This document shows positions 10,150-52,900 of a stretch of 64,000 bases of DNA, one piece after another. The stretch's first letter is position 1, and each line of letters opens with the position of its first letter. The stretch covers positions 186,001 to 250,000 of the forward strand of contig JACATO010000093.1 in assembly GCA_018389105.1 (NCBI GenBank), read 5' to 3'. The stretch comes from Nautilus pompilius (lineage: Eukaryota; Mollusca; Cephalopoda; Nautilida; Nautilidae). Below the pieces are notes generated by a model. That model was not told the origin of the DNA. It did not search any database and saw only the letters and a list, made by a program, of their open reading frames with translations. Both the position numbers and the translations under genes were made by a program.

Positions 10150-13100
10150 AACACGCATAGTTCATGCTAGTAGTTTCACTAGTAAAATTACTTTCATGAG
10201 AAAATGAAGTGATGTAAATAGTTAAGGAAGTGGGAATGTGGATCAGCATTCTTTATGCATTATGTATAGATGAAAGTGGTCACTCATCATTGCCTAGTCC
10301 TTTTTGGGCAATTTGCCCCAGTCAGCATTGACTGACTTGAATGAAGAAGGATTAAAACAAGACTTCCATGATGTTTACTCATTCTTTAGTTCTGATTTTT
10401 GGTAGCTGCTAGTATGTTAAATGGAAGCCATGCTAACAGAAATGTTCATGTTTAAGGGTGTTCATTTTCTGATGATAATGAATATTAGAAATTTGTCTTA
10501 ATTTTAAAACAATGCTAAGTAAAAATCCATGAATTCAGAACCATGTGAATCTTCAAAGTATTAACATTAGGATTACTAGTTAGTTTTCTAGCTTGCTGAC
10601 AAACCCACTAATATCTAATTCCATATTATTTGGTGCAAGTAACTAATGTATTTAATTTAAAGAAAAGCAGTAACTATGATTTTAAATTTTAAGGTATCTA
10701 CAGTTGCATAAATATTATATAAGTATCAGTGTGTATATAATGTGTGGTAGGTAGATGGAATAAATTCAAATGTTTTTTCCCAATTAAATTGTTGTAGTTT
10801 GTTTTTCTTTTTTTTTTGATAACCTGTGAATTTCTGTAATCTTCATAACCAGTGAATGCATGGGTAATTGAACTCTTCCCTGATTTGATTCAATTATACA
10901 GTGATTCTGGCGAGAACCAAATGCCATTTATTGCTCTTTAATGTTTGTTTTTTGTTGCTGTTTTTTAAGTAATGGGTTTTATTTGCTCATGGTCAGCCAG
11001 TTTTTAAATTCTTTTGTCAGCTTATATAACAGCTCAAATTTGTTATTGTTATTATTGTTGTTATTATTGTTGTTGTTGTTATTATCATCACTCATCATCA
11101 TCATTATTATTATTTATTATTATTATTATTTTATTATTATATTATCATTACTCCTTCATCATCATCATTATTATTATTATCATCATTATTATTATTAACT
11201 TTGAGTAACTAGAAAAACCATTAAATATATTCTGAAATTTCACTTTTGTATTTGTAGTAAAATAAAATAACATTTGCTATTTAGTTGGTAGCTGGTTCAT
11301 TCCACGTTTGCTTTATTCAATCAATGCTAAGCATTCTTTACCTGTTTTGAATTTCACTGATCTATCATTAAGAGACAAAAATAAATATTAATGATGGTTT
11401 AATAAGTTTAGAGCTTGTATATTTTTTTTAGTTTATTGGGTAATAGTAGATAGAATAACTGAGAATTTGAAATGGCAAAATGGTATTGGTTCAAATAAGC
11501 TGATAGCAACATTCTTAATAAGAAAATTCATCCAGAGCTTGCAGTTCTCTATAGCAAGAATCTGTGTTATTTTTTAAATAAAATTTTGAGTGTACTGCAG
11601 AATTGATTAAAAATTTGCTTTTTTTAAAATTAAAAGATAAAGTGAGTATGAAATTTATTTTCTTTTAAAAATGTTTATTAATGTAATATAAAACTTCCAT
11701 TCGGAAGAAATGTATTTAACTTTGGCATATGAACTTATGGGAGGATAAACTTAAGTTTTGATAGAAAAATGCCTTTTAAGCTGAATTCATGTTAAAGTAA
11801 ACATTATGAATATCTGATGATTATTTTGTTATGTACAAAAATGGAAATTGATCTTTACTGCCATGTCAATCTATTTGGCTTAGTTAGGACCTGCAGAAAG
11901 GTGCTAGCATACTGATTTAGTCTTATCTTACATTATGTTGACATGGCACCAATGTCTTGTTCGTGTTAAGAAAAGTGAGATTTCTGAAATTCTGTTATGC
12001 ATATAATTAGAAAGGCTGTAATAAACTGTGATATCTTTATTTTTGAAATCAAAGCTGTCCGTTAAAGTTTAAGAGAAATTAATGCTCTACATTCGATGCA
12101 TTTTTATTTAAATGTTTTTTAATCATAGTAAAACTTTATTTTTTATTACGTTAGTTAATGCCACTTTATATAGATTAGAAATGTTATATACACTCAAAAT
12201 ATGAACTAGAGCATTTAAAAAATATTTATACCAGTTGACACTATCCTTCAGTTTAAAAAAAAGTAACATTACTTGTGCAATCTTTTTAATAATAATTATC
12301 TCTGACTTGCGAATTAGCTCCACTAGGTCGGTTATTTCAGTGTAGTCATTGAAGTGAAAATACAGGAACTGGTTAAGTCTGTAGCATGAAATGAACTTTT
12401 CTATTTTCTTTGATAAGAATCTGTATACAATTAATGAATGTTTTTGTTGCTCATGAATGCAAGAATGATAGTGAAACATTTCTCTGTAGCAAAGGCAAAA
12501 GCAAAGTCAGTGGACTAGCAGCAAGCACTTACGATTTGTCTTGAATAATTTTAAAAGGACAGCAGTGTTTTCAGGTGAATAATCTACATGAGAAAATCAT
12601 TCATTTCTAAAACTCTTAAAATGTATGCTTTAGAAGTACTTTTTAACCTTTCATTTTCTATGCTAGTTTTCATTATATACTGGCTGGAGGGTACATTTGC
12701 ACTGTAGCTTAGAAGCACTTCTATTGAACTGGCTAGGATTGGAGTGGTATAGATTTGTTGTTGCAAAGGGTTATGTTATTGTGGAAGGTACTGTTTGTCA
12801 CAGACTCTGGCTCAACCTATACTACAGATTTGATGGGTATTGAGGTGCAGATATCCTAGGTGGTGTATAGAGGGTTAAGGAGAAAAAAATCTGATACAAC
12901 AAGTTGCACTGAAATATGTATTTTATCTATTCTTGTGTAGTTTTTCTTGAGGATTTGTTAGTGATACTTCTGAACAACTTGTCATTTGCTAAAATCAACA
13001 TCAGATATTTTTTAAATGTGAGTTTTTCTATTTAGTATGGTTAATTTTTTATAGTACAGGCAGCTAAATGAAAAGAATTTTTTAACCTACAGTAAGCAAC

Positions 13101-14379
13101 TTATCAGACCCTAATGAGACATGGAGATGGTTGGATATTTGAAAAAGTCTGATACTTGGATGGACTATTTTTAAACAAATCTTGCTGCTTATCCAACAGC
13201 ATTTTTCTTCAGTTTTGCTCAAAATAAGAACTACACACACACTTTTTGGATTGTTTACCAAAGTACCAGCTGAACTACTATTAACATTATTAAACGACAT
13301 ATTGCAGAGATTAAAATTCTTATCATTGATAAAAATCACTAACAAAGGAGAATACAATCAATACACTTCCAGCTTATTGAAAGGATGCTAACTATCTGGC
13401 TGGAAGCAAGGTGAACAGGCACAGACTGGATATAGCTTTCTTGGTGATGAACTCATGAAGTACAATGGTTCATTTTCAGCTATTCAACCTATCCTGGCTT
13501 AGATTGGAAAAGTTAGATAAATGGAGGGTGGATAACAGGTTGTTTGCTGTATTAGCTTAATACTAATGCATAGATTATCCTTCTCAAACATGCTTGTATA
13601 TGCATGCATAAATACACACATACTTTTAATCTAGCTGTCTGCTCCTGATTAAGTTAAACCCTGGTAGGAAAGGATGAAGTTACTTTTTAGTTTTGAAAAA
13701 AGTAAAAGATTAGTTGGCATATGATAAATCGCTTTCTGAATGTATTTCATTATTTGTTTGTTTTTTCTTTTAATGTGATTATAATTCTGAAAAAAGGAAA
13801 ACTACTAAAATTGAAATATTGTATTGTTTCTAAGTGTTACCCATGCTCCAATAAATCCCTATACCACACTTTAGTCCCATCTATTTAAAAAATGCCCATT
13901 TGTCTGCTTTTATGAATATTTCAGCACATGAACATTGTCTATTAAAGAATGTACTTCGTAAACAAGATGATCCATCATTATTGTCTTTACAGATACTAAA
14001 TGAAAATTAGCCATATCATTTGTAGCCTACTTCATAGTTCTTTTCACTAATGAAATATTTGTTCTAGAAATAACTTTAGATTGTTTATTCATGAAATGTG
14101 CTTATTGTTTGTTTGTACCTCTGTACATACATAGGCAAGTCTTCATAGCATTCATAGAATATTGCCTTGTCTAGTAATACATAGGAAAAAGCTTCTTGTT
14201 TGGGCATATGACTGCTGTATTGCTGCTATTCTGAATGTCAATTAAGGAAATTTGGTGTGGACATAAAAAAAGAAAGATAATAGACATAGCAAGGTGATAA
14301 GGGAAAAGTGATTATGGACATACCCAAGATGAAAAAGCAGCTACTTGGGGTTGGTTGAAAACTGAGATGCAGAAATAGA
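10150..14379. other. AT-rich non-coding stretch
   Basis: Contains the trinucleotide tract at 11,040-11,197 and otherwise AT-rich DNA with no protein similarity. The longest frame (minus strand, 12,123-12,479, 118 codons) has composition typical of random AT-rich sequence and no motif. Confidence 0.6.
11040..11197. repeat. compound trinucleotide repeat (TTG/TTA/ATC/ATT)n
   Basis: About 158 bases of near-continuous trinucleotide repeat drift from TTATTG units through ATCATC to ATTATT units. Two forward frames stay open across it, giving poly-Leu/Ile/Tyr and His/Tyr strings. These are artefacts of the repeat. Confidence 0.95.
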
Positions 14380-14562
14380 TAACACAATTTTTGCTGACTT
14401 ATATCTGAGACTTGTTTCTGACTAATTTGTGGGTGCTGAACTCAAATATCACATTGGTTTTTGCCTATCAATTCAAGGTTTTGCTCTACAGCATACCCAC
14501 ATTTTCGATCAATCGCCATAAAAAGTACCCGATTGCAATGATTTCCACCATCACCTCAATCC

Positions 14563-14795
14563 TATTCTTATCATTTTATTTAGAATACCATTCCAACAAA
14601 CAATACCATGAATCAATTTTGATATTAACAAATATATTGGTTAACTATAACATATCAATCAGGTCAAAATATTGAAATAGAAAAATATAAATCGATGCTA
14701 GAATTGAATGAATTTTAGTCAAAAATGGGCACAAACAAATCCAGAATATTCTTATCATTTCATTTATAATACCATACAAACAAAACAATGACAGA
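14563..14795. repeat. imperfect direct repeat inside copy B (about 45 bp units)
   Basis: The segment beginning ATTCTTATCATTTTATTTAG near 14,563 recurs as ATTCTTATCATTTCATTTAT near 14,748. Each is followed by AATACCAT, then a CAAACAA-type stretch and an ATGA or ATGAC. The two copies lie between the left inverted repeat and the coding end of copy B, a usual place for subterminal repeats of DNA transposons. Confidence 0.7.
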
Positions 14796-14859
14796 CATGG
14801 GTTTATTTACATTAACTGATATCAGTAAATGACACATTCTTCCTTCATGGATTAAATTT

Positions 14860-15672
14860 TCATTTGTAGGCTTTTCTGGAGTGCTTCATTTCCAGACAGT
14901 CTCTTTTAATACTCCAACAGTAGTCGGCCATCATGTGAGTATCCCACCTTCCTTGGTATCGCTCCTCCATATCTTGTATATCTTGATGGAACCTTTCACC
15001 TTGCTCATCACTTACGTCACCTAGATTTTCAGGAAATTTATCAAGATGACTGTTTGAGGAAATGAACCTTTATGCTGATGTTGCAACCCAGACGATGAAA
15101 ATTCTTAAGCAACATTTGAATAAGATCTTTGTAATTTTCAGCTTTTTTGTTTCCCAGGGAAATTTTTCACAACAGCCATGAAAAAAATTCCATGCTCTTT
15201 ACTCCATATCATTCATGGAGCTTGTGAAATGTTGATCTCATTAGTTTTCTGATTTGTGGCCTGTCAAACACACTAGCTTTTATTTTTCATAACTGAGGCT
15301 AGGAAATGTTGTGCATATGTACTTAAAACAGTCACCTTCTATGCTCAGAGCTTTAATATACTGCTTCATTAGACCCTTTTTGATGTGGAGAGGAGGAAAG
15401 ATGATTTTTACCCGATCTACTAGTGGTTGGTTTTTGATATTTGGTTCTCCGACATTTAAGCATTTTCTTAGCCGCCAGTTATTCTGAGTCCAGTGCTTGT
15501 CCTTAGCTCTACTATCCCACAGGCACAAGAAACATGGATGTTTTGTGTATCCTCCTTGTTGACCAAGTAAAAAGTTAACCATTTTTAAGATCCAATAGAA
15601 CAGAAACTTGATGTGATAGGCAAAAACTGATTTTATTTTTGAAATCAGCGCCCAAAAATTAGTTGAAAACAA
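14860..15672 (-). pseudogene. decayed protein of the CACTG-ended element, copy B
   Basis: Reading leftward from 15,672, an open frame of 130 codons begins inside the terminal inverted repeat and enters the protein at KMVNFLLGQQGGYTKHPCFL (about 15,579). It continues through IFPPLHIKKGLMKQYIKAL and GDCFKYICTTFPSL to 15,280. After frameshifts, pieces resume with FDRPQIRKLM, KKAENYKDLIQMLLKNFHRL, DKFPENLGDVSDEQGERFHQ, MEERYQGRWDTHMMADYCW and KRDC, ending about 14,860. All segments are collinear with copy A. The function of this protein is not known to me; its position inside an inverted-repeat element suggests a transposition role. Confidence 0.75.
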
Positions 15673-15722
15673 GTGTTAGATCTTAGTCAGCAGAAAAAAA
15701 GTGAAAAAAATGTTGGCCAGTG

Positions 15723-18700
15723 TCATCAACTTTTTACTTTTTCCAAATATTGTGATTGTGGCATATGAATTGTAAGAAAATAAATGAAACTGGAGATCGA
15801 ATTTTTACTTCTACTGACCACAGGTTTCCATGGCTTTACAAATCAAAGTGCCATCAGGGATATGAAAAGTCCAGACATGCAACAAACCATAATTTTCAAA
15901 ATATTGTTATGTATATTCAAACTATTTCTACATGAGTTAAATGGTGACCATTTTGTTTTCTTCATAACTAGTGTACTTTAAGAGGTAAATGAACAATTTG
16001 GATGTATACACATTTAATTTGTATTATTACCTGTGTATCTGTATTTTCTTTTTAAGAGATGTTATGCCTTTGATAGAGAGCCTTGAGATATCTATTCAAA
16101 GCTTTGAATTTGTCCACCTTTAACTGCCAAGAAATCTTTGAGGTTTTTTGTTGACTTCCTAATTTTGTCTTTTGAATCTTCCATTTTTGATCGAGCGGAG
16201 CATTGGTCTCAAAATAATTGCATCAGTCCTGTTTGCACTCGAAAATGTTCTGAATGTATTTTTTTGCAGCAATGCCTTTGTAGATTTAGCCATTCAGTGA
16301 TAGTGCATGAGCTTAATGCTGCTTGTGTGTTCTTATCACTTCAATCTTTTTACTAACTGAAAATGTGAATCTGGCTTCACAGAGATTGTACAATCATACA
16401 CCCCTCATCTAGTAGTGTTGATTTTTTAAAATTTTTTTTTTACTGATACATGACTACATGCAATTCTTGCTAGGAATTGAAATCATCTAATTTTGGCTTG
16501 TTGCAACACTTCTCTACAAAAATGTCTCATCAGTCTTTATTAGGAAGGAAATTTGAAATTCTGATGTGAAGAGATCCAAGTAAACTGCAAGTGCCTTTTT
16601 ATTAATCAAAGAACCAGGATTCTAACTCTAAAAGTTCCAAAAAGTTTGGTAGCCAGCAAAAATTTTCTAGCTATCGGCTAAAATACGGTTACACTAGGGA
16701 GGTCAAGAGAATATTTTTGGTTGTTCACACTGCAGCAGCTCAACGTATATTTCTTTCATAATGAAGCCTTACATATCTTTTGAAAATGATTTTGGTTAGA
16801 GTGGATTTGCCATCTTCTGAAGTCCTGTGATTTCTTCAAGCCATCTGCTAAGCAGAGAGAGGCTAGTAAGGTTGAAAGGCGATCCTTTTTGTTATGAGGG
16901 GTGGATCCATAGGCATGCTGCTACAAACTGAGTCTGTGTGGTCGACTTTTAACTGTCTGCGTCAAAAGTTGGACTAGGTTTCGCAGGTGTTTATGGTGTG
17001 AGGGTCATTTCCTTCCTCTAAACTTTTCACTTCCTTTAATTCACTCCTATTAACATCCTTCTGTGTTCTTATATTTTCTGTGCCGTATGTTCTTTACTCC
17101 GCTCACCACACACTACTGCTCGCTTGTTCTTTAAGATCAGACATAATGCAATTCATGAAATTGCAGTTTTCTTGCTGCTTGAGTTCATAAATAGTTTATA
17201 TTGCTATAATCTTCTAGCTATCCATAATTTGCAAGGTAAGGGTCCACACGGGTCATCTCATGTTGTTGTTGACACCTGGTTGTGGTTTTCACTGTTGGTG
17301 TTATTGATGGTTATCAGAAAAGATAGTCACCAGCTAGATTTTTTTTTTGGTCACCAACAGCAGCCTGGCAACGATATTTTTGGAGCTCGGCAAATTAAGA
17401 GAAAACTGAAAATAATGAGAAATCACCATGTTTTAGTTTGAAACATGATGATGCTACTTTGTACATGTGAATCTCAGATTTTTGGAGTAGCCAGTGGTTA
17501 AACGTTATAAACATGATCGAAAAGGATATTTCTTTGAAAGATACCATGATATTTAATCAAGATAGGAGTTAGTAATCCTTTTTACTCCTGTTTATGGTGT
17601 GTTCTTGGAATATTGCAGAAAAACAGAAAATCTGTTGTTATGAAAATCGGTGTAGGAATTAAAAATCCTTGTCATTGGTATCGGCTTGAAACTACTGTGG
17701 AGAAAATTTTTTTTTTTTTTTTTCGAAATTTGTCACTCATATCCCTGGCCATCTGTACAACCAAGTGCAGTTGGTGTGTGTCCTTCCTTTTTGGTCTTTT
17801 TTCATAGTCACTGTTTCTGTGACATGTCACTCTTTGGTTCATTTGTTTTTGTTTTTTTTTCTTTTCTTTTTTTTATTCTTTCACAACATATAAATCTATG
17901 GTATCTGTCATATATGTTCAGTGATGATTGGCTTGTATTGTCATGGAAATATTCTCTCATAGTTTAGTTTATATATTGTGATGCATTGGGGGGGGGGTTC
18001 AGCGGATTGAGATATTTTGGATTCAGCAGTTATCCATCCCAACTTTTGAATTTGGATGAGTCCAATAAACTCTTCAGGTGGCAATTAGAACTAATATGGT
18101 ACTTTTTCAAAGCATTTATTTCTAAAATTGTAAACATCTATCATTATATTTATTCATCCAACGAACAGGTTGTCATAAAGCTATAGCTGATTGAGGAGGT
18201 GTCATGAAAAATTAAGCACTTAATCTTGAAATACTACAGTATATGCCAGGAAATTATTGAACACCTGACACTCCATGTATTGCTTATTAGAGTCTGACAC
18301 TGTTGGTTAATTTATTTGTCATTTAATTATCATGAATAAATTTAAACTTTTGCACTTCAATTTTTCCCACCTATTTGTTTTTATATATATACACATAAAC
18401 TGGCCTTTTTTGTTTTGTTTTTTTGGTATTAAAATGCAAATAGATTTTTGAATCTACTCACCCCACATTTCCAATGTTTTATGTATTAGATTGGTTGAAA
18501 ATAATAGATTTACAAATTTGCCCTAGGCAAATGCTAAAAAGAATATTGTCAATAGCATTAATCTTTTTTTTTTTTGGTTTGTTTCTGCTGTTTTTTAATG
18601 CATAGCTAAAGAAGATCTAAACCAGGAATCCTTGTAAAACAAAATGGCTTTCAGCCACTTTGTATTTAATATATTGAAATTGATAGAAAAATTTGCTTTT

Positions 18701-34054: not shown

Positions 34055-36320
34055 TCTATCTGGTAGATAGATGTCAGTAGATCAACAATAACATGACAGC
34101 CATAAAAAGTAAACATTCAAATTGGAATGTAGAGTTAAATGCATTAAGTTTGCCATTGACCCAATGACCTCATTAATTGCCTTCTGTTAAGAAATTAAAA
34201 AAAAAATTTTTTTTTTAAGTGTTAGATTATATATATATATAATGTTTGGCATCTGTTTTTCTAAGCACAAATTTAGTTAGTGCTAATATGAAGAAATTGG
34301 AGTATATTTAGAACTTAAGAATAAAAACAAACAAACAATGGCTAACATAGCCATGCATTTCTTTTTCAACTACATAGTTTTAATTTTGTCTTTTAGTTGA
34401 TGATGAACTTTGTTTAAATTGAAAATTTCTTATTTCAAACATGACTTTAAAAAAAAAAATTTGTTTCTACTATTTTGAATATGAATGTATTTGAAAGTTA
34501 ATTTACCATTAATTAGTCAGCCTGTAAGTAGGCATGATTGTATTCTACATCTTCCATACTATTTACTTAATTAGTAATAGATAAATTAAATAAGCTGTTT
34601 TCTTCATACAGTAAGTAACTCTAAGGTACACACTACCTCAGTCTGCTTAGAGGCAAATTATTATGCTATCTTGAATATTTCTGGAAAATATTAATCAAAT
34701 GCATTTTGTTTTTTATTTTAATATGTAGTTAACTAAGAAGTTTCTTACAATTGAAAAAAAAAAACCATCTGTTATCCTTAGCCACTTGTTGAATTTTTCC
34801 ATGGAAAACCTTTGGAAGGTATTGTAGTGTTTATCCATATTTAAGATCAGTCAGTAGTATTTAAAAAATTTTTATTTTTTAAAACAGCATTTATTCTGAA
34901 CCACACAGTATACAACAAAAGTTTATAATTAAGTTAAAATTTTAGAAAACATTTTGGGGGGTTATTCAAGTTTAATAATAGTTATTTTTAAGTCCTGTAA
35001 TTATTTATATATTATATATGTCACTGCATTGAAGTGGAAATTAACGATGATTGCCAGGTCATATATGATCAGTTTTTGAATACATGCACACCTTTTATTA
35101 TATTAAAAGTATAATTTAAAAAAATTTTTTTTTTACTAATTTCTTTAACCCAGATTTGCAATTAAAATTTTAATGGAAGCTTAAACACTATGCTACATTT
35201 AGTGACAAAAGACGCTAGCTTCAGACTCATAGATACAGAGCATTCCATTGCCAGATGCTTCTTGAAAAGTTGTTTGCATGGATAGGCAATGTCAGAAGCT
35301 GCCTGGATGGACAGTGTTAGAATTGAAGGGACCATTGTAAAGCCATATTTACACATGACTGGATCAACAGCTAGGCACACTGGTCATCAATGAAAAGCTA
35401 TTAAGGATATTTGGTTGGCTACCATGACTGGGCCTCAAAGCTTGTCTACATGAAAAATTATGCGCAGAATATAAAATTAATAGTATAAAGCAAATAAGTG
35501 ATCTGGATAAATTCAGTGAAGTGTTGCCTAGTGTTTTGTGAAAAAGAAGAGGACTAACTGAATGTACCTGTTTCCAAGTTACCAAAACATGGACTTATAG
35601 GTCAATTATTGCTAGTTATTATAGGGTCGTCACAAAATTGTGGCTATATAATTTTAAGAAAATGTTGAATAAAAGTGATAGCTGATGAGTAAAAGGTTTG
35701 ATTACAGTAAGCAATGAAGAGCCGGTACAGATGTTTAGAAGTAAAAGATAAACACATTTGGTTGCTCATCTTGAGTAGCAAATACTTTAAATTATATTCA
35801 GCCATTTTCACACCTGGTTAAGTGTTGTACTGGCATGTTTGTGTGTTAAAATCATATGATTGTCTAATGCTGTGTTCTCAAATCTGTTGCAGTAATAATT
35901 GTAAATCTTTTATAAATTAGCGTATTTGACCACTATACCAACTATATATTATACACTTGTGGACATAGACCACTTCCATTCAGTATTTATTTTAAGTGAT
36001 TGTTAGACCAAGTTTGGATGGTGATTTGTTTTTTTTTTGTTTTTTTTTTAAAAAAAAAAAAAAAAACTAAAATTTCAATAGTGAAATTTCTACTGTAGTG
36101 CCTTGCCATATTAGTTTAGTTTCATATTAAAAAATGAAGCAGTTGTCTGAAATTTACATATTTTGTGGTGATGTGGGCAGATAACCAGTGTGCATTATCA
36201 CCGTGATAAAGACTGGCAGATTTTTTTGATATTTCTCAATTTACAGTCCTATTATAGGCATTTCAGAGTGTATTCAGTAATGTATAGAAAGAACTTTCTA
36301 TTTCTCTCTTAGATCTGTGA
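34055..36320. other. AT-rich non-coding stretch with one unassigned segment
   Basis: 34,200-34,245 has an A/T palindrome followed by (AT)n. 35,160-35,590 is less AT-rich and open in pieces on the minus strand (72-73 codons each), suggestive of an old repeat, but no motif could be matched. A run of T then A longer than 30 bases lies at about 36,029-36,066. Confidence 0.5.
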
Positions 36321-42780: not shown

Positions 42781-43361
42781 GTAGCATGGCTATCTGCAGA
42801 CTGAGGATTCTTCTGGCCTGTACCTCCTTTTTATAGCATGCAATCGTATAACTGGAATGGTTTATCTGAGTCTCAGGTGGTGTCTATTTACATACATCAA
42901 ATCTCTGTATGTCGTTCTGACATCTTCCATATTGAAATTTGTATGAACTGCTGTTTACATTAGCTATCAAAGTTTTCCCTAGATATAATGTTTAAAAACA
43001 AACCTAAAAGTTATTGAAGTTAGGAGTTTGGAAAGTGAAAAAGGGTTGCTATAGAAACTGGAGTTAGATTAGAATGTTTAAAGTAGCTCACTGTGCCCCC
43101 CTTCCCCAAAAGTAATTTAGTACTTTTAAATGGTTGATTCATTTAAAAGAATACTTTTTAAATTTACTATCATAATGTATTTTTCAGATAAAAAGTATTA
43201 AAAATCAGAAGCTATGAAAATAACACTGGTCACAAATTTTATTTTTTTTCTTTGGCATACCATCTAGGAGTGTTTTCTGGGTTTTGAAGGCGCTGATTAC
43301 GAATATAACGAATATACATTGGTTTTTGTCTGATTGGCTCTAGTTTAGAAGATATTGATAG

Positions 43362-43482
43362 CCTCAAATAAGCCTAAACTGCTAAAATTCTCCCTGAAAT
43401 ACGTCAATATAGAAGCAGTAAATAATAATTTTTCTGATATTATTGAATCATTATAACATACTATAGGACAAGGGAAGGCAGC
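43362..43482 (+). other. subterminal leader of copy A
   Basis: The sequence between the left inverted repeat and the first recognisable coding part. A frame in register with the protein start can be followed only from about 43,460. No promoter element is recognisable. Confidence 0.4.
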
Positions 43483-44505
43483 TTGCTTCGTTTCTTTTCT
43501 AAAGAAGATGACCTGATCTTTTGTAATGACGTTTCTGCACTTCTTAACTGCATGGGGATCTCGTCATATGACCCAGCAGATTGGCGTCTCTTTATAGATA
43601 GCTCGAAAGCAAGTCTAAAAGTTGTACTTTTGCATAATGGCAATAAGTTTGCTCCTGTACCACTTGGCCATTCTACCAAGATGAAAGAAGAGTATGATGG
43701 TATCCAATTTGTTCTTGAAAAGCTAAATTACAACACTCATAAATGGCTGATTTGTGTGGACTTGAAAATGGTGAATTTTCCTGCTTGGTCAGCAAAGTGG
43801 GTACACAAAGTATCCCTGCTTTCTTTGTTTGTGGGATAGCAGAGCAAGATCCAGCACTGGAGAAGGGAGAACGGCCAGAACGAGAAAGTCTCGAAGTCGG
43901 CACAGCCAACGTCATCAATGAGCCTTGGTACCCAGGGATAGAATCATCTTCCCTCCATTGCACATAAACTAGGGCTCATGAAGCAGTTTGTTAAGGCGTT
44001 GAACAAAGATGGGGATTGCTTCAAGTACATATGCAGGCAATTTCCAGGTCTTTCCATCGAAAAAGCTAAAGGTGGCATCTTCGATGGACCTCAGATTCGA
44101 ACGCTCATGAGGGATTCTGACTTCACTAATCATATGAACATGGTTGAGTTAAATGCTTGGGTGTCCTTCACAGATGTAGTGACAAACTTTTTGGGAAATC
44201 ACAAAGCTGCAATTACAAGCAATTGGTCCGTAAGATGCTTACTGCATACGAAAAACTAGGGGCAAATGTGAGCATCAATTCATTTCTTGTTTAGCCACCT
44301 CGACAGATTTCCTGGTAATCTTGGTGATTACAGTGAGGAGCAAGGAGAGAGATTCCATCAAGACATCAAAACAATGGAAGAGAGGTATCAAGGCAAATGG
44401 GATGAGCACATGATGGCAGACTACTGCTGGAACCTTTTGAGAGACTGCCCGAAAGTTGCTCACAAGCGAAAATCGTATAAACGTCAATTTCACTTTTGTG
44501 AATAA
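43483..44505 (+). pseudogene. protein of the CACTG-ended element, copy A (frameshifted)
   Basis: Five segments in three frames make one collinear protein. 43,483-43,778 runs from MLRFFSKEDDL through YDPADWRLFIDSSKASLK and HSTKMKEEYDGIQFVLEKL to VDLKMVNF. One inserted base near 43,779 moves the frame to LLGQQSGYTKYPCFLCLWDS. Another shift leads to RESLEVGTANVINEP and IIFPPLHI. 43,978-44,212 is MKQFVKALNKDGDCFKYICR through IFDGPQIRTLMRDSDF to VVTNFLGNHKA. A shift gives NYKQLVRKMLTAYEKLGANV. The end, 44,287-44,505, is FSHLDRFPGNLGDYSEEQGE through RFHQDIKTMEERYQGKWDEH to MMADYCWNLLRDC and a natural stop. Total about 340 residues. Cys/His residues (PCFLCLWD, FHQD, DYCW) are conserved with copy B. 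I see no DDE-transposase signature that I recognise. I recall similar sequences as abundant uncharacterised proteins in invertebrate genomes. Confidence 0.8.
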
Positions 44506-44857
44506 AATATTGTTTTTGTGTGTTCATTGTAACTAAGAATCTAGTGTATAATAATGCTTTGCATTAATTTATGATATATAACTGATTATGTAAATGTTTT
44601 TTTCCCTTGGAGAATTAAAATTCAGCAAATTTTTAGCAAATTTTTTGTATATTCTCGAAATATATGAAAAGTGTTCATTTATTAATAAATGAAATGATGT
44701 TATATCTAACTTAACTTGTTAGATTGAGATTTTACACTGTCTTTGTGTGGTTTTGGATTATCATAAAAATCAATATCTGACATTTTTTGCACTATTTAGC
44801 CGTTTTTTGTACGTTTAGTTGGGCGCGAATGGGTGATTTCAGACGAACGACCCCCCT
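44506..44857 (+). other. 3' non-coding part of copy A
   Basis: AT-rich DNA between the stop codon and the right inverted repeat. It carries AATAAA-like signals just after the stop and ends in a GC-richer patch TTGGGCGCGAATGGG and GACGAACGACCCCCC next to the right repeat. The GC patch has no counterpart on the left side. Confidence 0.6.
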
Positions 44858-45072
44858 GTGATATCTCCAAAACTAGAGCCAACTTGAAAAAACAAATGTC
44901 AGATTTCGGATTCAGCGCCCTTGAAACCCCAGAAACCAGTCTCACTTTTCCTGCCAAAAATATTGTGTTGACCAGTGTAATGCAAGTTTCATAGCATTTT
45001 ATTTTTTTTAAAAATAGTAATAATGTCAGTAAGCCTAAGGGAAAAAAAAAGTAATTTGTTACATTAAAAATA

Positions 45073-45104
45073 AATATATATATATAATATATATATATAT
45101 ATAT
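45073..45104. repeat. (TA)n microsatellite
   Basis: About 32 bases of alternating T and A directly abut the start of SINE copy 2, as if the SINE had inserted into or expanded the repeat. Confidence 0.9.
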
Positions 45105-45385
45105 GGATGGTCTAGCAGTGGACTACTGGACTGCTTGATTGTGAGAGCATGAGTTTGAATCTTGGTCTGGACCAGTTGGCATACCTCCTAGCATGGTTTC
45201 TCACTTCAGCAGCAGCCAGCCACAAGGGTATCTTGTTTTTTTGTTTTTTTTCTATGCTAAAATAATAAAGAATTCCAGTAAGACTTTCCTTGCCAGAGTT
45301 GCAAGTGCCAGGCCCCTTAAAGTGCAGTATTGGCAATGCTTCCTAATGGATAACTGAGGCATTGTTCCTTTAACCAGAGTTGTGT
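45105..45385 (+). repeat. tRNA-derived SINE, copy 2 (best preserved)
   Basis: The 5' region GGTCTAGCAGTGGACTACTGG resembles a tRNA box A, and GAGTTTGAATCTTGG, about 45 bases downstream, resembles box B (consensus GGTTCGANTCC), so an internal RNA polymerase III promoter is recognisable. It is followed by GCATGGTTTCT, a T-rich middle, TCCAGTAAGACTTTCCTTGC and the shared tail TGGCAATGCTTCCTAATGGA, TAACTGAGGCATTGTTCC and TTTAACC. The tail matches copies 1 and 3, which shows a conserved non-tRNA 3' part. Confidence 0.8.
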
Positions 45386-49900: not shown

Positions 49901-52900
49901 AGTAAATAAATACAGCTATTTTTGCTGGTCAATTTAGTGCAGAGTTCTAAGCAACCATTTCGATTAAAACCCTGTGAAATTCTGATACTTAGGATATTTA
50001 GTAGTTTTAAGAAAACTGGTAATAAGATGAGGGATGATTTGGTCAGTGCTTAATTTGTATTTTGCCTAGAGAGATGAATCTGTAGTTTATAAATTACTTA
50101 GTAGTTTAATTATTTCAAACTTATATTAATGGGAGTCTAAATATAAGCTTAAATATATGTAAATCACCAGTACAGTTTTTGCATTATCTTCATGTTTATA
50201 AACTTCCCTCCCATTTATTTTATGATCATTGCTTACAATTAACTCTATAAACTTAATTTTAAAAAATCTATAGCTACATTTCCTTTTCAATGTATCTGCT
50301 AGCCCGCTATCACCTAAAAAGATGTTTTTCTGATGTAGTGTTGGTTGGCTTTTTTCATGCTGAAAATATCTGGAAAGTTCTTTAAATTTTCTTTTTTTTT
50401 AAAATCTTGTGTTAAATTGGAAAAAGAAAAACCAGTAATTGCTTCTGTTCAAACTCTCATAACCCATGAATCAGATGGCAGTAATCAACCAGCCTGTGTT
50501 TATCGTGTTTTTATTATAAGGCACTGGTCATTCATTCATTTTATTATTATTATTATTTTTTTTAATATTTACAACAAAATTATGGCTTCATCACAACCTG
50601 TATGTAATTGTATTTTAAAGGCTTCTTATGAACAGACTAGACTAAAATCAATGGCAGACGCCGCCACCTAATATCAGCAATACAACAGTGTTGCTTTTTC
50701 AGCATTAATTTGTAAAACTGATTACATTAGTTGACTGACTGTAGTGGTTATAGCATAAGTTCTGATGATGATTCTTGACTGTAGTATTGCCTGCTGTTGA
50801 TTTTTTAATATTTTTTACTTAATATAGCCTTTGACTGTTTTCATCTTGAGCCAAAGATGTAATGAAGCTTGAAGGAAACAATTTGATTGCAGCACGTGTT
50901 ATACTCCAACAATCGCTAAACAGCTGATGTTGACAATAATCTGCTAAATCTTGTTGGTTTTGGATTTAGAAACATTTTTGTTTTTGTTTTGAAGTTTATA
51001 TTTTTTGTGTGTGTAGCACCAAAGAATGGATTTTGATCATATGACAGTTTGTAAGTGTCTTGTGTTTGTTTACAATAAGTATCCTTTTAACGTTAGCATG
51101 AAAGTAAAAAGAAAATAAACAGAGTTTTGGATTTGTTTCTTTAATATTTCAGCAAAGGTTTGCTGTTTTTATTCACCACCTGTTTACATTTTTTTGAACT
51201 TGTAGTAAGCCTGTTGTTGGACTCAAGCAAGGTTTGAACAACCTTAGAGTCTCTTGAACCTGAACAAGCTTGAGAGGATTGTGTCCATAGTATAGTCCTT
51301 TTGGTCATTGTCATTCAGTTTCATTATAGCAGTGCAATCATCTGGCTTTTGCAAAAAAACAAAGGAAAAATCAGTAAAAAGCATAAGTTATGGATGGCAT
51401 CTGATTGCTACAGTAATGAAAAAATGTGCACAATTTTGATTAGATGAAAATTTTACATCTCTGATGAAATAAAACAAGTATACGATACTCGGCCTGTTTC
51501 TCTGTGCATTCTCTCTCTCTCTCTCCGTGAGTAATACCATTATCTTGTTGAATGCATATTTTAAATGTTCGCTGACTAGAAAGACATTGTTCACAAAGAA
51601 ATTGATATTAACATTTACAAGATTAAGAAATTTAAGGAAACCAGTTCACTTAAAATAATAATAATAAAAAAAAACATTCTGGTAGACTGTTATAAGATTG
51701 CTTCACCATCCATGCCTCAGTTTATCATCATCAAAGCAGTTATCTCTCAACAGCTATAGAACAGGTTTATAGAATTGAATGCTGTAACACTGATGATAGT
51801 GGATATGTACAAGCAGAAGCTTAAGGATGCATTGCTTTATCACTCAAACTCTAAGCTTATGGCATTGCATTACAATTTACTTTAGTTCTATCTTTGAAAC
51901 TCCTAAAATATGTTGTAATACATTGTATATATTTTAAAAATTGCAATACAAACCCTTTAAGCAACCAAAAGGATAAGTGATTTTAGTATGTACATTGACA
52001 GAAGGGAAATGGTAGTTTTCATCTTGGAGATATTCACATGTAATTTTTTATTCAGATGCCACAGGTTTCAAGCTTAAAGTTTTGATATTTCTTGAAATTT
52101 TGCCATGAATAAATAAGGAAAGACAGACTGTTTCAGGTTCTGAATTTTATTTATTACTGGTATTCATATTAATTGTAGTATGTGCAATAAATATGTCTTC
52201 AGAAGTTAATTTTAAAATAGGAATTACTTGCCAAATTTATTATGATAAAAAAAAAATGTCTAGGATGTTGGTTTTACCCTTGTGAAAGTTGACTAAGAAC
52301 ACATTCAGCAGGAATTCTTTTGAAACCTGTTAGTAGACAACTTGATAGACTAACTAGTCATGTGACCCATACTGTTAAAGACCAGTCAAAAGAAAAAAAT
52401 CCTAAGATGATTTTTTTTTAACATTTGAGACTACAGTAAAGCAATCTTAGTACATCTGCATTAGAATCCAAGTGGGTGGATAAGTTTCTCAAATTTTTCT
52501 GTAGCTTAGTGGTAAATTCTCATACCTGTGTATGTCTCAAACGAACTATTTCATGGATATTATTTTTTTCTCATAACATTGTTATTTTTATGTGATCTTA
52601 TATTAATTTTATTGTTTATTTGAAATTTTCGCTTTAAAAAAGTTGGCAAAATTGAAATTTAAACTTTTCTCTGAATAAAAAAAATATGGTTTGAAAATTT
52701 TCTCTATTTGGTGGGAGTTAAAGGGTTCCACAAAAAAATAATAAATCTGATTCTTAATCAGTACAATATCATTCACGATGATCTGTTATGGCAAAAAAGA
52801 AAAAAAAATTAAATGCTGTTTAAGGAATCTACCACCAGCTATACTTAAACAGCTGCCTTATTGCAGATAAGCATTAGCATGGAGTTTGGTTCAGTGATAA

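Follow-up and report, generated by a model that had tools for sequence, protein, structure and literature searches.

A decayed and internally deleted DNA transposon, very probably of the Chapaev3 type, and a second, more decayed copy on the minus strand

What kind of transposon occupies positions 43224-44977 of the DNA analysed here (the window, a stretch of 64,000 nucleotides numbered 1-64000), and can a known lineage account for it? A preliminary description of the locus had recorded matched ends, TAA on both sides and one protein of about 340 residues, for which no known lineage seemed to fit. Our analysis indicated that this element (copy 1) is very probably a decayed, internally deleted Chapaev3-type DNA transposon of the Chapaev group of CACTA-Mirage-Chapaev (CMC), as judged by its ends, target site and motifs rather than by alignment with a named Chapaev3 protein. 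Yuan and Wessler (2011) are said to have analysed CMC. Copy 1 is an ordinary element, and the earlier puzzle is due to the breaks in its reading frame and to a family that is missing among the well-known signatures. The features of copy 1 are as follows.

43224-44977, element of probable Chapaev3 type (copy 1), 1,754 bp
43221-43223, no strand, left target duplication TAA, preceded by A
43224-43355, plus strand, left terminal inverted repeat, beginning CACTGGTCACAAA
43447-43779, plus strand, first open block (frame 1) of the transposase remnant; the joined reading starts at 43477
43597-43599 and 43759-43761, plus strand, codons of the putative first D (in DSSK) and second D (in VDLK), computed from the block starts
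43778-43966, plus strand, frame-shifted blocks with the putative C(2)C (CFLC, 43817-43828) and LH (in PPLHI, 43958-43963)
43963-44276, plus strand, blocks between LH and H(4)H of the transposase remnant
44278-44505, plus strand, carboxy-terminal block with the putative H(4)H (HFLFSH, 44281-44298) and the stop TAA (44503-44505)
44347-44349, plus strand, codon of the presumed catalytic E (in GERFHQ), within the carboxy-terminal block
44861-44977, minus strand, right terminal inverted repeat, ending TGTTGACCAGTG
44978-44980, no strand, right target duplication TAA, followed by T

The window is AT-rich (31.5% GC) and reads like intergenic or intronic eukaryote DNA. It contains 12 stop-to-stop frames of at least 110 residues, and a Pfam scan of ten of them at E 1 yielded only weak sub-threshold matches, to TMEM127 (E 0.16, 17040-17438) and FtsL_2 (E 0.068, 50339-50668). 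A TTA microsatellite of 155 bp is located at 11043-11197. The region at about 45103-45190 resembles the head of a tRNA-derived SINE, as judged by eye from A-box-like and B-box-like stretches; ARAGORN and Rfam (at gathering scores) reported nothing in the 64-kb window.

The termini of copy 1 were read directly as CACTGGTCA...TGACCAGTG (CACTG...CAGTG) at 43224 and 44977, and the borders in full are ATAA-CACTGGTCACAAA ... TGTTGACCAGTG-TAAT, so that the ends, coordinates and flanking TAA given in the preliminary description all stand, as does its conclusion that the element is a DNA transposon flanked by a 3-bp duplication. Its estimate that the arms can be aligned for about 120-135 bases (43224-43355 against 44861-44977) was borne out when the first 170 bases were aligned, with gaps allowed, to the last 170 in reverse complement: about 130 bp (left-arm bases 1 to 132) could be matched with a score of 95, compared with a maximum of 73 among 4,913 random window pairs of equal length, none of which scored as high. 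Under stricter scoring only 43268-43355 was aligned, with a score of 59, and 1,975 random pairs reached at most 51. The inverted arms of copy 1 are real.

Two further repeat structures were noted in the window. The flanks of copy 1 (43200-43219 and 44987-45006) form an inverted repeat with 20-base arms that are 85% alike, including nine exactly matching bases (GCTATGAAA/TTTCATAGC); in 5,000 random placements its alignment score was reached by 0.12% and its longest exact match by 1.96%, and the repeat is either due to chance or marks a small-palindrome loop that served as the insertion site. A candidate short element at 35378-35533, bounded by two facing terminus-like 12-mers, was rejected, with no duplication visible; such 12-mers with at most two mismatches are common in the window (13 observed, 7.8 expected, at least 13 in 3 of 100 shuffles).

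The coding remnant of copy 1 comprises about 340 readable residues and ends at the TAA stop at 44503-44505, in agreement with the length and natural stop reported before; the reading is not collinear as had been supposed, since its seven blocks (43477-43779, 43778-43852, 43866-43925, 43925-43966, 43963-44211, 44211-44276 and 44278-44502) lie in frames 1, 2, 0, 2, 1, 0 and 1, respectively. Several block boundaries touch or overlap because the limits were defined by typed peptide pieces. With six frame changes, the coding part of copy 1 is a pseudogene fragment; the element is unable to make a complete protein and could move only if transposase were supplied by another copy.

Across these breaks the motifs DSSK, VDLK, CFLC, PLHI, HFLFSH and GERFHQ follow one another, starting at 41, 94, 114, 161, 271 and 292 of the joined numbering, in which X spacers are counted. 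They may be read as D41, D95, C114/C117, L162-H163, H271/H276 and E293, that is, as a CMC-type set in which D, D and E are accompanied by C(2)C, LH and H(4)H, in place of the protein without any DDE signature that was first described. The suggestion that the protein is probably all or part of the transposase was right. As the remnant itself displays the motifs of a DDE core, though no amino-terminal part, a separate catalytic gene lost from the element need not be assumed.

Only 91 bp separate the left arm from the first open block at 43447, and no amino-terminal part of a transposase was seen in copy 1, including the Chapa zinc-finger domain, which is amino-terminal in Chapaev3 transposons (PMC4411706). 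By analogy with the known family, very roughly 200 amino-terminal residues would be absent. The missing Chapa domain says little about the family because it is taken as part of an internal deletion of copy 1. Complete Chapaev3 elements described in PMC4079192 include Garfield_BM (2,289 bp, transposase of 556 residues) and Merrow_PM (2,451 bp, 78 + 484 residues), and internally deleted Chapaev derivatives are known from the same source; the 1,754 bp and about 340 residues of copy 1 fit such a deletion, and the preliminary idea that the element could be a shortened derivative of a known superfamily was right.

A second copy, absent from the preliminary description, was found on the minus strand about 27.5 kb away, with the following features.

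about 14373-15722, minus strand, second, more decayed copy (copy 2) with its own arms, an end and the same protein
15711-15722, minus strand, recognisable end of copy 2, CACTGGCCAACA
14388-14488 and 15596-15696, arms of copy 2, 78% alike over 101 bp
15588-14854, minus strand, transposase remnant of copy 2 from just past the second D, interrupted by stops and frame changes

In a blastn comparison of the element with the window, copy 2 was matched at 15594-14897 on the minus strand with 66% identity over 706 columns, and a tblastn search of the window with the copy 1 protein matched it with an E value of 1.46e-74 over 249 columns, spanning joined residues 96-340 (from past the second D nearly to the end) and including internal stops. 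The gapped score of its arms (115) exceeded those of all 4,913 random pairs. The end CACTGGCCAACA and the right end of copy 1, CACTGGTCAACA, differ by a single base, and the left end of copy 1 differs from the latter at two positions. The CAC...GTG termini are recognisable at one end of copy 2 only; the other terminus is unrecognisable near 14373, a position estimated by alignment of the arms. No target duplication can be shown for copy 2, in which TGA stands beside the intact end and the other end is decayed. Copy 2 retains C(2)C, LH and the E motif, and a frame change splits its H(4)H.

Comparison of the two copies over seven aligned blocks gave 122 identical residues among 175 codon-aligned ones, with 46, 32 and 100 differences at codon positions 1, 2 and 3, respectively, a pS of 0.88 (saturated) and a pN of 0.20, which is probably an underestimate because the blocks were picked where both copies are readable and are thus the better conserved parts; the excess at position 3 is still clear. 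This degree of residue identity together with saturated silent sites indicates selection on the protein before both copies broke, and we infer that the two lineages split while the protein was needed and were inactivated afterwards.

Database and model searches were carried out with the remnant. No Pfam family was found at E 10 with any of four queries (three pieces and the joined reading), including PF06918, the Pfam family of Chapaev transposases (PMC3985635); at this threshold the HMMER filters discard most matches above about 0.1. The PDB sequence search with the single reading returned three sequences (E 0.49 to 0.73) and that with a two-sequence profile one sequence (E 1.2), all judged to be chance matches, with nothing convincing among chains that included RAG1 and Transib. 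An AlphaFold model covering residues 1-105 (the first block), built without relatives, was poor (mean pLDDT 50.3). Protein searches of viral contigs gave 9 and 7 pattern matches and no confirmed relatives, and degenerate patterns gave 2, 0 and 2 loci there (L001-L004), which were rejected as relatives; the best match, 27 residues in L002 with E 0.064/0.14 against the joined reading, was attributed to chance. Prokaryotic genome contigs, searched by protein and by pattern, gave 48 pattern matches with no confirmed relative and, in a further search, none at all, and tblastn of phages and plasmids found nothing at E 1. Viral, prokaryotic, phage and plasmid records would not be expected to contain an animal transposon. 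The peptide GERFHQD had no match in a literature search. Close relatives of the copy 1 protein are presumably present among the uncharacterised proteins of many invertebrates, including octopus, an assumption that was given no weight.

The assignment of copy 1 was instead based on the hallmarks of the group. Chapaev transposons are described in PMC4079192 as having CAC/GTG ends and duplications generally of 3 to 4 bp, with C(2)C, LH and H(4)H as characteristic motifs, and all Chapaev3 elements examined there have a TWA duplication between A and T. Copy 1 has CAC...GTG ends within inverted repeats, a TAA duplication with A before and T after (A-TAA...TAA-T, in one of the two copies) and, across its frame changes, motifs readable as DDE plus C(2)C, LH and H(4)H, so that a known lineage does fit, contrary to the initial view. 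According to PMC4411706, Chapaev3 is only distantly related to other Chapaevs, and PMC3630058 lists Chapaev3 in a fly.

It is unlikely that copy 1 belongs to another member of the CMC/CMCT assemblage (CACTA/EnSpm, a Transib-like element or an unnamed sister of Chapaev3) that moves by the same mechanism. C(2)C with H(3-4)H, mostly CA..TG ends and duplications of 2-5 bp are common to the whole assemblage as described in PMC12730594, where EnSpm also has CAC..GTG ends and 3-bp duplications. However, PMC4079192 reports the A-TWA-T target for Chapaev3 and LH for Chapaev. No Pfam family was matched, those of CACTA included, which weighs little because the Chapaev Pfam family was equally unmatched. 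Quite unlikely, in particular, is a sister lineage of Chapaev3 absent from every repeat library, with CACTGG ends, arms longer than 100 bp and its own DNA-binding part at the amino terminus, since lost from both copies.

The absence of any Pfam match at E 10 and of anything convincing in the PDB might also suggest an undescribed transposon superfamily with a protein of a different kind, but this is very unlikely, because the CMC core motifs, both acidic and zinc-ligand, occur in the right order and because the ends and the target match Chapaev3. A PIF/Harbinger element, with which a TAA duplication is compatible, is extremely improbable: CACTG ends and C(2)C/H(4)H are, to our knowledge, not features of Harbinger, and no Pfam match of any kind was obtained at E 10. 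Canonical Harbinger elements do have 3-bp duplications (PMC12730594). That copy 1 is a host gene or domesticated transposase within chance repeats is scarcely credible, despite the selection on the protein seen between the copies, in view of the six frame changes in copy 1, the stops and frame changes in copy 2, arms far above chance in both copies and the similarity of their ends.

Chapaev3 is a known animal kind of cut-and-paste transposon, distantly related to the RAG1 recombinase, and copy 1 looks like an element of that kind. If the known family is a guide to chemistry, fold and zinc site, binding of an intact transposase to the terminal inverted repeats would have been followed by excision of the element, through a DDE active site of the RNase H-like type that includes, like those of Transib and RAG1, a C(2)C/H(4)H zinc site, and by insertion at A-TWA-T targets with duplication of three bases.

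These findings matter mainly for repeat annotation, since a copy that is frame-shifted and truncated, and that no Pfam profile matches, can look unassigned. The two diverged copies and the strong past selection suggest that more than one Chapaev3-like family may once have been active in this genome.

Among known systems, the Chapaev3 elements Merrow, Garfield and Conan, as described in PMC4079192, resemble copy 1 in their CAC...GTG ends, in the TWA between A and T and in a DDE core that contains C(2)C, LH and H(4)H, whereas copy 1, at 1,754 bp compared with 2,289 and 2,451 bp, is shorter than complete Chapaev3 elements, frame-shifted and without the amino-terminal part. CACTA/EnSpm shares the CAC..GTG ends and the 3-bp duplication (PMC12730594), whereas the A-TWA-T target of copy 1 is that of Chapaev3, and no Pfam match was found. 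The order second D, C(2)C, H(3-4)H and E is also that of the Chapaev/Transib/RAG1 core as given in PMC12730594. Copy 1 differs from RAG1 and Transib in that its sequence did not match their PDB chains. Its 3-bp duplication also contrasts with the 5 bp of Transib, whereas the distance from its putative second D to the first C, 19 residues, is the same as in RAG1 (D708 to C727).
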